Shown piece after piece: positions 23,170 through 26,612 of a stretch of 35,009 bases of DNA. The DNA is from Nitrospira sp. (lineage in GTDB: Bacteria; Nitrospirota; Nitrospiria; Nitrospirales; Nitrospiraceae), in the NCBI GenBank assembly GCA_029865345.1, contig JAOUHD010000013.1, positions 1 through 35,009 on the forward strand. Reading direction: 5' to 3'. The stretch's first letter is position 1. Each line of letters opens with the position of its first letter. A program made the translations under genes and the position numbers. The notes under the pieces were generated by a model. The model was not told the DNA's origin, made no database searches, and was given only the letters and a program-made list of their open reading frames with translations.

Positions 23170-23424
23170 ATGTCGTTGGATCGACTTGATGCATTGGAAA
23201 CCAGAATTCGTGACCTGGTGAAGCTTGTCCAAGAATATAAGCGAAAGAATGCGCTCTTAGAGGAAGAGCTCAAGGCGGCTCGCCAGCGGTTGACTTCGCA
23301 GGATGATACGAATCGCCAATGGGAAAAGGAACGGCTAGATATCAAGGCGCGGATCGAAAAAGTCATGAATGAGATGGAGTTGCTTGAAGGTGTCGAAGAT
23401 CCTAAGGAGGTGGCCATTGACTAA
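23170..23424 (+). CDS. zapB: ZapB-like coiled-coil cell division protein
   Basis: A short coiled-coil protein of 84 aa. Nearly the whole length is one heptad-rich helix (LDALETRIRDLVKLVQEYKR, then LLEEELKAARQRL). This is the ZapB layout: a Z-ring stabiliser that bridges ZapA to the division site. Function is inferred from composition, size and its direct overlap with zapA, since coiled coils carry little sequence signal. AGAGGGG lies near the ATG. Its last codons contain AAGGAGG, the ribosome binding site of zapA, and its stop lies inside the zapA start region, so the two are translationally coupled. Confidence 0.8.
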   Translation: MSLDRLDALETRIRDLVKLVQEYKRKNALLEEELKAARQRLTSQDDTNRQWEKERLDIKARIEKVMNEMELLEGVEDPKEVAID

Positions 23425-23713
23425 GACCATTGATGTTGAAATTTATGGTCAACGGTACGCGATCACGGGAGATGGCGATGATGCCTATGTCCGGCGGCTG
23501 GCCAATTTTGTCGACGATCATATGAAACATCTGGCGGAAGGGATGAAGACGACGACCCCATCGAAGTTAGCGGTGCTGACGGCGATCAACCTGGCTCATC
23601 AGCTGTTTGAGTCCGAGAAAAAGCGGGTCCAAGGGGAAGCTGATGTCGAACGGCGGATGGTGACGTTGATGGAATCGATCGATGAGCAGATGCCGACATC
23701 GCTCTTTCGATAG
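23417..23713 (+). CDS. zapA: Cell division protein ZapA
   Basis: A 98-residue ZapA that bundles FtsZ filaments. Seen: the N-terminal beta motif TKTIDVEIYGQRYAITGDGD, the helix YVRRLANFVDDHM and the long C-terminal coiled coil with LAVLTAINLAHQLFESEK. The start is TTG at 23417: AGGAGG lies 6 nt upstream, inside the zapB-like gene, and the frame gives the standard ZapA N-terminus. The track instead starts 16 codons earlier. The zapB-like gene stops at 23424, an 8-bp overlap. In gammaproteobacteria zapA is followed by the 6S RNA gene; here a structured non-coding segment follows. Confidence 0.93.
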   Translation: MTKTIDVEIYGQRYAITGDGDDAYVRRLANFVDDHMKHLAEGMKTTTPSKLAVLTAINLAHQLFESEKKRVQGEADVERRMVTLMESIDEQMPTSLFR

Positions 23714-23730
23714 CGGAGATTCGCCTTGCT

Positions 23731-23759
23731 TTCAAAGAGTCCCTTTGTTAACGTATAGA
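23731..23759 (+). promoter_or_regulatory. Candidate promoter for the structured RNA
   Basis: TTCAAA at 23731-23736, 17-bp spacer, TATAGA at 23754-23759. It lies just after the zapA stop and would start transcription near 23767, about 15 nt before the first arm of the long-range helix. Both hexamers match 4 of 6 or more. Confidence 0.45.
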
Positions 23760-23780
23760 TAGGTGAGTGTGCGGATGAGT

Positions 23781-24152
23781 AGGGAAGAGTGATATCGCCG
23801 ATTGTTGATCGCCTGGAAACGAGTGCTAAGAAAACCACAAGAGAACGTTTATTTGATGGGATACGAAGTGTTCATTCGGTGGATGCTCATGGTATGGGTC
23901 GTGCGCGGGCGGCGTCACGTGGGCGCCCAGCGGCCAGTTTCTGAAATTGAAGCGATCCGGCGAATACCTGCCGGATGGAACGAGTATCTACCCTCCATGC
24001 CTGTTTCGATCGCTAACTCTTTCCAATGGCTGATGTCTGGAAATAGACGCCTGAGGAAGGGCAGAGAGAGAAACTTCCCGAGTATGGCATCGTATCCTGA
24101 CAATCTCTTGCGGTTCCAGGCGGGACGACTCGCGGTCTCCTAAGACTCTTCC
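23781..24152 (+). ncRNA. Candidate structured RNA between zapA and rny (6S-like position)
   Basis: No supported gene lies here; the 113-aa ORF has no domain or ribosome binding site. Four helices nest in order: GGAAGAGT (23783-23790) with ACTCTTCC (24145-24152); CGCCTGGAA (23810-23818) with TTCCAGGCG (24114-24122); CCACAAGAGA (23835-23844) with TCTCTTGCGG (24104-24113), 9 of 10; GGATACGA (23859-23866) with TCGTATCC (24090-24097). Helices two and three abut on the 3' side, leaving a 16-nt bulge on the 5' side. Inside are local hairpins such as ATCCGGC/GCCGGAT (23955-23976) and TTTCCA/TGGAAA (24020-24043). Position matches 6S RNA, but about 370 nt is roughly twice its usual size. RNase P RNA and tmRNA core motifs are absent. 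Strand and ends are inferred. Confidence 0.55.
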
Positions 24153-24187
24153 ATCTCTTCACCTTACATCGTGTTCGCGTTCATTCC

Positions 24188-24224
24188 GCTCAGTCTGAGG
24201 CGGGGGCTCCGCATCAGGTTGAGC
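24188..24224 (+). promoter_or_regulatory. Long imperfect hairpin just upstream of rny
   Basis: GCTCA (24188-24192) pairs with TGAGC (24220-24224), CTGA with TCAG, and GCGG with CCGC, with only two small mismatched steps, giving a 37-nt hairpin about 40 nt before the rny start. No T-run follows, so it is not a standard terminator. It could be a leader structure, perhaps a processing site in the RNase Y message itself; that role is inference. Confidence 0.45.
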
Positions 24225-24264
24225 CTAATTGGATCTGATTGTTTTCAAGAAGGGGGTGACTCCC

Positions 24265-25836
24265 ATTTCTACATCAACTGTCGTGTACATAATCCTTTCA
24301 GTGATCTTCGGGGCTGTGGTTGGTGCTGGACTATTTGATTTCCTGCGACGGCGGATGACGGGCGCCAAGCAGGCTGAGGCAGAAGACTTGGCTAAGCAGG
24401 TTGTGCAGAACGCACAACGAGAGGCCGAGAATGTTGTCAAAGAAGCCAGGTTTGAAGCCAAGGATCTGGTCTTCAAGGCAAAGTCCGAATTCGAGCAAGA
24501 GCAGAAAACCAAACTTGCTGAACTCTCGACGGTGGAGAAGCGTCTGATCCAACGAGAGGGAGGACTTGACGGAAAAGTTGCCGCCTTGGAAAAGAGAGAA
24601 ACCGAGTCACGCAAGCGCGAGGCAGATTTTGCGAAAAGAGAAGAGGGGCTGGCGGTCAAAGAGTCTGCCTGCGCCAAGGTTGAACGCGAACATCGAGACG
24701 CGCTAGAACGAGTCGCCGGGATGACGGCCGATGAAGCCAAGAAACAATTGATCCTCGAAATGGAATCGCAAGCGAAGCTCGAGGCTGTAGGCCTTGCCAA
24801 GCGCACGATCGAAGAGGCTCGTGAGAACGCCGAGCGTGAGGCGCGGGAAATCATTACTAGCTCGATTCAACGCGTCGTTCGTGACTATGTCGCGGAATCC
24901 ACGATCTCGGTGGTTCCCATTGCAAACGATGCCATGAAAGGTCGAATCATCGGTCGGGAAGGGCGCAATATCCGTGCGCTTGAAGCGGCGACGGGCATTG
25001 ATCTGATCATCGACGAAACTCCTGAAGCCGTGATTATCTCTGGATTCGATCCGTTGCGGCGCGAAATTGCCAAAGTGTCGCTGGAGCGTCTGATGCACGA
25101 CGGGCGCATCCATCCCACGCGCATCGAGGAGATCGTCGAAAAGGTCAAGGTCGACATCGACAAGCTAATGTATGAAGAAGCAGAGAAAATTATTTTCGAA
25201 CTGGGGCTTTCGGACTTTCATCCTGAGTTGATCAAGGTCTTGGGGCGTCTCAAGTATCGCACGAGCTACGGGCAAAATAACCTCTATCATGCCCGCGAGG
25301 CGTCGTACATTTGTGGCATCATGGCGTCGGAATTGGGTCTCGATGTCCGACTGGCTCGGCGCGGCGCCTTGCTGCATGATATCGGCAAGGCGGTCAGCCA
25401 TGAAGAAGAGGGACCGCATGCCATGCTTGGGGCCGAGATCGCGAAGAAGTACGGCGAATCTCCGAAGATCGTCAACGCGATCGCCGCGCATCACGAGCAG
25501 GTGGAGCCGATTTGTCCGGAGAGCGTGTTGGTGGCGGCGGCTGAGGCATTATCGGCGGCGCGTCCGGGTGCGCGGCGGGAAGCGCTGGAGTCTTACGTGA
25601 AGCGGTTGGAAAAGCTGGAATCGCTCGCGACCGGGCATAAGGGCGTGCAGAAAGCCTACGCGATCCAAGCGGGCCGTGAAATTCGCGTCATTGTGAGGCA
25701 AGAGGACATCACCGATGCCGAGTCGTTTGAACTGTCTCGTGAATTGGCGAAGAAGATCGAGCAGGAGTTGACCTATCCGGGACAGATCAAGGTCACTGTC
25801 ATTCGAGAAAGCCGCTACGTGGAATACGCCAAATGA
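24265..25836 (+). CDS. rny: Ribonuclease Y, with apparent ATT start
   Basis: A membrane-anchored endoribonuclease of about 523 aa that starts mRNA decay. Order of parts: one N-terminal transmembrane helix (VVYIILSVIFGAVVGAGLF), a long charged coiled coil (about 30-200), a KH RNA-binding domain (MKGRIIGREGRNIRALE) and the HD domain with metal motif LLHDIGKAV. The start is unusual. AAGGGGGTGA (24250-24259) matches the ideal AAGGAGGTGA in 9 of 10 bases, and the in-frame codon at 8-nt spacing is ATT (24265). The alternatives are GTG 24256, overlapping that site, and TTG 24229, which the track uses. The gene overlaps ymdB by 4 bp (ATGA). The start is uncertain; the family call is secure. Confidence 0.93.
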   Translation: MSTSTVVYIILSVIFGAVVGAGLFDFLRRRMTGAKQAEAEDLAKQVVQNAQREAENVVKEARFEAKDLVFKAKSEFEQEQKTKLAELSTVEKRLIQREGGLDGKVAALEKRETESRKREADFAKREEGLAVKESACAKVEREHRDALERVAGMTADEAKKQLILEMESQAKLEAVGLAKRTIEEARENAEREAREIITSSIQRVVRDYVAESTISVVPIANDAMKGRIIGREGRNIRALEAATGIDLIIDETPEAVIISGFDPLRREIAKVSLERLMHDGRIHPTRIEEIVEKVKVDIDKLMYEEAEKIIFELGLSDFHPELIKVLGRLKYRTSYGQNNLYHAREASYICGIMASELGLDVRLARRGALLHDIGKAVSHEEEGPHAMLGAEIAKKYGESPKIVNAIAAHHEQVEPICPESVLVAAAEALSAARPGARREALESYVKRLEKLESLATGHKGVQKAYAIQAGREIRVIVRQEDITDAESFELSRELAKKIEQELTYPGQIKVTVIRESRYVEYAK

Positions 25837-26612
25837 AAGTCCTCTGTCTCGGAGACATCATGGGGGAGCCGGGTCGCCGGGCTGTCGCTCGGGCCGTGCC
25901 TCGGCTGGTCGCGCAGCATCATATCGATGCGGTCATCGCCAATGGAGAAAATCTGGCAGGAGGCTTCGGGGTGACGCCGGAGTTGGCCGAGGAATTGTTC
26001 GACACCGGCATCTCGGTGATCACCACAGGAAATCATGCCTGGGATAAGAAAGAGGCGCTCGATTACTTTGCTCGTGAGCCCCGCTTGTTGCGGCCGGCGA
26101 ATTATCCGGCGGGCGTCCCTGGAAATGGGAGTGTCGTCTTCGAGACCGCAGGCGGTGAGCGGCTGGCCATCTTACAGTTGATGGGCCGGGTGTATATGCC
26201 GACGATCGATTGCCCGTTTCAGACGGCTAAACGTGAGTTATCACGGTTGAAGCGCGAGACGTCCGCGATCATCGTTGAGATGCATGCGGAAGCCACGTCT
26301 GAAAAGATGGCTATGGGGCATTTTCTTGATGGAGAGGTGGTCGCTGTCGTTGGAACGCATACGCACGTGCAGACTGCCGATGAACAAATCCTGCCGAAGG
26401 GCACTGCGTACATCACGGATATCGGCATGACGGGACCGCTCCATTCGGTGATCGGAGTCAAGAAGGAATTGGCGATCGAAAAGTTTTTGACCGCGATGCC
26501 GAGGCGGTTTGAAGTCGCATCAGGACCGTCCGTATTTTGTGCGGTTCTGCTTGAGCTCGATCCCCGCCTGGGCAAGGTGATCACGTTTGAACGCATTCGC
26601 AGCATCGATTAG
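25833..26612 (+). CDS. ymdB: YmdB-family metallophosphoesterase (TIGR00282)
   Basis: A 259-residue calcineurin-like phosphoesterase. Metal-binding motifs are LGDIMGEPGRRAV at the N-terminus, IANGENLAGGFG, TTGNHAWDKKE, VEMHAEATSEKMAMGHFLDG and GTHTHVQTAD. Bacillus YmdB hydrolyses cyclic nucleotides in vitro and is coupled to RNase Y. The ATG overlaps the rny stop (ATGA), so the two are translationally coupled, as in many bacteria. Its TAG stop is formed by the first bases of the inverted-repeat element at 26611-26737, so the C-terminus may have been set by that insertion. Confidence 0.93.
   Translation: MKVLCLGDIMGEPGRRAVARAVPRLVAQHHIDAVIANGENLAGGFGVTPELAEELFDTGISVITTGNHAWDKKEALDYFAREPRLLRPANYPAGVPGNGSVVFETAGGERLAILQLMGRVYMPTIDCPFQTAKRELSRLKRETSAIIVEMHAEATSEKMAMGHFLDGEVVAVVGTHTHVQTADEQILPKGTAYITDIGMTGPLHSVIGVKKELAIEKFLTAMPRRFEVASGPSVFCAVLLELDPRLGKVITFERIRSID

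Follow-up and report, generated by a model that had tools for sequence, protein, structure and literature searches.

In the genomes of Nitrospira, nitrifying bacteria of global importance, the cell division gene zapA and the ribonuclease Y gene rny are separated by a long gap, and what this gap encodes is the question that we address here. The window analyzed is a stretch of 35,009 nt of Nitrospira sp. (contig JAOUHD010000013.1), where an inspection of the letters without database searches, the sequence-only reading, had proposed an undescribed large structured RNA. A scan of the zapA-rny interval against Rfam, at gathering as well as relaxed thresholds, matched no family, in line with the word “undescribed”, and no description of Nitrospira non-coding RNAs was found in the open literature searched. 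The genes for RNase P, tmRNA and SRP RNA were all located at other sites of the same genome, so the candidate was rejected as the sole copy of any of the three. The element is very probably a selected, rod-shaped non-coding RNA of the plus strand, hereafter the rod. Its position, promoter, non-coding status, long hairpin shape and the selection acting on its plus-strand fold are supported by computation, and we infer its transcription and mode of action.

The zapA-rny interval and its promoter

The gene order zapA-rny is retained in about 108 loci, and the length of the gap stays constant (505-690 nt) among these loci from about 100 Nitrospira-type genomes. Downstream of the promoter described below, identity between clades falls to about 40%, and the sequence of the gap drifts at a rate similar to that of synonymous sites. 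The rny gene of the window (Table 1) shares 97-98% identity with those of its closest named relatives, which are Nitrospira MAGs, and its true start is probably a GTG near position 24256, preceded by AAGAAGGGGG. Directly 3′ of rny lies a gene for a YmdB-type phosphodiesterase (25833-26612), and immediately 5′ of zapA a coiled-coil gene of the zapB type, an arrangement that can be compared with the zapB-zapA-ssrS clusters of Proteobacteria.

Table 1. Features of the zapA-rny region, in positions of the window
Feature	Position	Strand	Evidence
zapB-like gene	23170-23424	+	Pfam ZapB, E 3e-6, slightly below the curated cut-off
zapA	23417-23713	+	Pfam ZapA, E 2e-18; presumed TTG start codon
Promoter	23726-23754	+	TTGCTT (23726-23731), 17 nt, TAACGT (23749-23754); conserved arrangement
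Rod-shaped ncRNA candidate, single long imperfect hairpin	23762-24192	+	Predicted fold, shuffles, controls, sister-pair test
Helix 1, 8 bp	GGAAGAGT 23783-23790 / ACTCTTCC 24145-24152	+	73% of cells paired, 44 homologues
Helix 2, 9 bp	CGCCTGGAA 23810-23818 / TTCCAGGCG 24114-24122	+	82% of cells paired, 44 homologues
Helix 3, 9 of 10 bp	CCACAAGAGA 23835-23844 / TCTCTTGCGG 24104-24113	+	68% of cells paired, 44 homologues
Helix 4, 8 bp	GGATACGA 23859-23866 / TCGTATCC 24090-24097	+	92% of cells paired, 44 homologues
Open frame, 113 codons, not a gene	23802-24143	+	Even codon-position changes; no Pfam or NCBIfam match
rny, ribonuclease Y	24229-25836 (longest frame)	+	TIGR03319, E 1e-204

The only strongly conserved block of the gap is a promoter next to zapA. 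An extended -10 promoter was found directly 3′ of zapA in 122 of 129 zapA-rny intervals, with the consensus TTGC(T/A)(T/A), 17 nt, TTTGnTAnnnT and a spacer of exactly 17 nt in 114 of the 122, whereas the same pattern occurs in none of the 129 intervals within the 160 nt upstream of rny. In the window, the extended -10 TG occupies positions 23746-23747 (TGt-TAACGT, 23746-23754), and transcription is predicted to start near 23761-23762. The promoter is present in genera of the family f1, in the family f2 and in part of f3; both promoter and rod are absent from the family f4 and from part of f3. A simple scan of the interval reported neither an intrinsic terminator nor a consensus sigma-70 site, and the promoter call is based on conservation and not on such a scan. 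The idea that the putative RNA would be preceded by a promoter of its own gains support from this conservation, although the conserved element is TTGCTT-17-TAACGT and not the TTCAAA-17-TATAGA originally pointed out.

The gap could instead be filled by a short protein gene that evolves quickly (about 95-120 codons), since most clades have an open forward frame of 95-130 codons here, and dN/dS is slightly lower in this frame than out of it. Parsimony changes are, however, spread almost evenly over the three codon positions of the frame (435/396/493 in the largest clade; also 156/146/164), and the third-position excess seen in zapA of the same genomes (53/21/396) is missing. Moreover, neither a start codon nor a ribosome site is conserved in the frame, which matches no Pfam or NCBIfam family, is disrupted in part of clade 8 and is missing from clade 5. 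A protein-coding gene in the gap was therefore rejected as very improbable, as the sequence-only reading had anticipated when it saw no credible gene.

A long hairpin with a drifting sequence

The predicted fold of the interval is a rod of about 430 nt, with an outermost pair at 23764-24192, that fills nearly the entire gap and ends about 60 nt upstream of the rny ribosome site. The sequence-only reading had described four nested helices, and all of them were located and are included in the minimum free energy structure (z -2.45 over the interval proposed at the time), with helix 3 abutting helix 2 on its 3′ side. Chance nesting had been judged unlikely, and indeed a comparable long-range nested chain, of at least three such helices, arose in 1 of 400 dinucleotide shuffles, that is, in at most 1/400. 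The structured interval stood, and its extent had been underestimated, with the rod running beyond position 24152. Conservation of the helices is uneven among the 44 closest homologues: only helices 2 and 4 are well kept, largely as invariant sequence (helix 4 with no more than two misses in 43 of the 44), whereas helices 1 and 3 are kept less well.

The architecture as a whole is far more general than these helices. A rod fold was predicted in 120 of the 122 promoter-bearing loci. Pairing between the two ends was counted in 47 divergent loci: on average, 36.6 pairs join the initial 60 nt to the final 160 nt, whereas dinucleotide-shuffled sequences give 10.7. Control windows in rny and in the upstream and downstream genes reach 5-10 pairs and a nesting depth of 49-65, and canonical 6S loci 0-8 pairs and a depth of 40-74 by the same measures. 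The mean folding z is -1.9 for the rod versus -0.07 for rny. As far as predicted folds can tell, the large structured RNA that had been proposed is supported by the comparison with shuffles and controls.

Part of this shape has a simpler source. The 5′ half of the rod is G-rich and its 3′ half more C-rich (GC skew of +0.29 and -0.08 over the 47 loci), and this strand asymmetry accounts for roughly one third of the pairs formed at long range. An ordinary spacer could owe its hairpin look to strand composition, without any selected RNA. Shuffles preserving local composition give 19.8 pairs instead of 36.6 and a nesting depth of 80 versus 108, so the rod shape is due to asymmetry in part but not as a whole.

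Evidence against an ordinary spacer also comes from substitutions between sister sequences 83-96% identical, where real changes were compared with random changes of the same kind placed within 20 nt. The real substitutions spare the rod fold (mean z -1.58, s.e.m. 0.17), with negative values in 63 of 68 comparisons, which are 34 pairs taken in two directions and not all independent, and they raise nesting depth by 16.5 relative to the random ones; in three control regions, the z values range from -0.16 to -0.43 and the depth effect is about zero. The effect is stronger on the plus strand (z -1.79) than on the minus strand (-0.97), and the plus-strand minimum free energy is below that of the minus strand in 34 of 34 pairs. 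The plus-strand RNA is under purifying selection for its fold, which contradicts the spacer explanation unless selection is mimicked by some local mutational bias of an unknown kind, and we regard that explanation as improbable.

The lack of significant covariation speaks for the spacer explanation and against a selected RNA. Compensatory changes in the four helices had been suggested as a check, and they did not appear: neither a scan for covariation at the level of helices nor an R-scape-like G-test with a phylogenetic null gave a significant result in the homologous intervals, and changes on both sides of pairs in a 9-sequence alignment were no more frequent than in shuffles. Structures predicted separately for three subclades have pairs in common between two of the three only, and the structure of one sequence or subclade, when tested in others, shows weak and mixed enrichment. 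A column-permutation RNAalifold test gave z values of -4 to -8 (-3.7 to -6.3 with 30-nt windows) versus -1.8 to +0.7 in coding controls, figures not to be relied on alone because clustered conserved columns in non-coding DNA may inflate them. Selection on the fold is visible only in tests that are independent of fixed base pairs, and the shape of the rod seems to be conserved while its pairing register drifts. An RNA selected only for its shape escapes Rfam-style searches and covariation tests alike, and similar ones may be overlooked elsewhere.

Relation to 6S RNA

The place of the rod, directly 3′ of zapA and 5′ of rny, is that of 6S RNA (SsrS, RF00013) in other Nitrospirota. In other orders and classes of this phylum, canonical 6S RNA is flanked by zapA and rny (hits with E about 1e-20), and one of these genes is its neighbor in most of the loci checked where either fell inside the fetched flank. 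Loci of this kind, with 6S between both genes or adjoining one of them, are L194-L199, L201, L207, L208 and L218. A TTG(C/A)nn-17-TnTGnTAnnnT-like promoter was found upstream of 17 of 28 such 6S genes, and the order zapA-6S-rny looks ancestral for Nitrospirota. Because 6S RNA fills the zapA-rny gap in other Nitrospirota, in many cases with the same type of promoter in front, we consider it highly likely that the Nitrospirales rod sits at the ancestral 6S locus, and the link to 6S that had been drawn from the neighborhood of zapA was well founded.

A second suggestion of the sequence-only reading, that the RNA could be Nitrospira’s own 6S RNA in a divergent and oversized form, fared differently. 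Locus and promoter speak for it, and 6S RNA and the rod share an elongated hairpin shape. However, the genome of the window encodes a 6S RNA elsewhere (G000:C190:13948-14029, locus L127), detected with a model of Nitrospirota 6S (E 1e-15) and recognized by its conserved, diagnostic GGUGUGCA...GGGAAGCCUAAA apex, and in a relative the 6S RNA, also outside the zapA locus, is a 162-nt rod with a 12-bp closing stem. With about 430 nt, the rod of the zapA-rny gap falls outside the 160-200 nt or so of 6S members (typically about 180 nt). With RF00013, no hit fell into the interval, be it at the gathering score or at E ≤10 in the window and ≤3 in relatives, in a search that did detect a true 6S locus. 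The apical motif (GGUGUGCA...GGGAAGCCUAAA, or GGUGUGCA...AAGCCU) was not found in the rod by motif search, and R1, a model of the apical domain that recovers L113 and L127 as well as L198, an unused positive control, returned no credible hit from 49 zapA-rny loci (the best had E 3.4). We regard an oversized 6S RNA as very improbable.

A less direct kinship deserves more weight. The rod could be a stand-alone 6S-like or Ms1-like RNA, that is, a derived 6S paralogue that never left the original site and has expanded to about 430 nt, with RNA polymerase still as its target, the canonical copy having relocated. The locus and promoter type shared with canonical 6S of other Nitrospirota fit this paralogue, and so does the rod architecture; one or two 6S copies are found outside the zapA locus in many genomes of the family f1, so duplications have occurred. 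Yet the rod lacks the 6S motif and any model match, is more than twice as long as 6S RNA and drifts in sequence at about the synonymous rate, whereas the 6S apical motif is conserved. We judge such a paralogue possible but rather unlikely. Although no 6S RNA by membership, the rod has probably either replaced 6S at the ancestral locus or descended from it beyond recognition.

A precedent for unrecognizable relatives of 6S is Ms1 of Actinobacteria, a longer 6S-like RNA (about 220-300 nt) that was found through its conserved gene neighborhood, a HAD hydrolase and an oxidoreductase, its sequence being unrecognizable, and whose binding to RNA polymerase has been demonstrated (PMC9130861). The rod belongs to another phylum and has zapA and rny as neighbors instead of the HAD hydrolase and oxidoreductase genes of Actinobacteria, so it was rejected as an Ms1.

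The 6S RNAs of Nitrospiraceae (L127, L111-L120, L224-L235) lie outside the zapA locus, often in two copies per genome. They have probably been missed in annotations because they match RF00013 in the apex only, and mostly below the gathering score. Searches for 6S in the family f2 and in most of f3 gave no hit, so the rod might be the sole successor of 6S there; the loci behind this family-level pattern of 6S and promoter are L178 and L179 (f2), L180, L183 and L184 (f3), and L185-L188 (f3, f4). The zapA-rny gap may offer a concrete case in which 6S RNA moved away, its promoter remained and another RNA took its place.

A possible leader of the ribonuclease Y message

A general reading of these data is that Nitrospirales possess an order-wide class of giant rod RNAs, keeping shape and length but not sequence, which would have taken over the locus and promoter of 6S after its move and would act either as a second RNA directed at RNA polymerase or as a control element of RNase Y; we put this only a little above even chances. 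With somewhat more confidence, we consider it probable that the gap harbors the gene of a non-coding RNA of about 430 nt whose promoter was inherited from the ancestral 6S gene, and we prefer for it a mechanism as a leader of rny, itself still tentative.

In the leader mechanism, the rod would be transcribed from the promoter left just 3′ of zapA by the ancestral 6S gene, and would make up the 5′-terminal portion of the rny mRNA, because neither a conserved promoter nor a terminator separates the two. Co-transcription of zapA-6S with a downstream gene is known in Proteobacteria (PMC7641849). The rod may be recognized through its double-stranded shape and not through its sequence, and we infer RNase III, perhaps together with RNase Y, as the simplest agent. 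Cleavage would release the rny message from the rod, and RNase Y levels could thereby be coupled to the RNA-processing capacity of the cell. This predicted association of a long double-stranded RNA with the RNase Y gene is directly testable in cultured strains.

A long 5′ hairpin and no promoter between it and the gene would mark an RNase III-processed leader of a nuclease gene, an arrangement that the rod shares, with rny presumably read from the promoter on the zapA side. In E. coli, the leaders of pnp and rnc form hairpins that RNase III cleaves, and autoregulation has been demonstrated for them. Like these leaders, the rod is a predicted hairpin 5′ of an RNA-decay gene without an intervening promoter; it differs from them in that cleavage and autoregulation are postulated and in its size, the E. 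coli leaders being much shorter.
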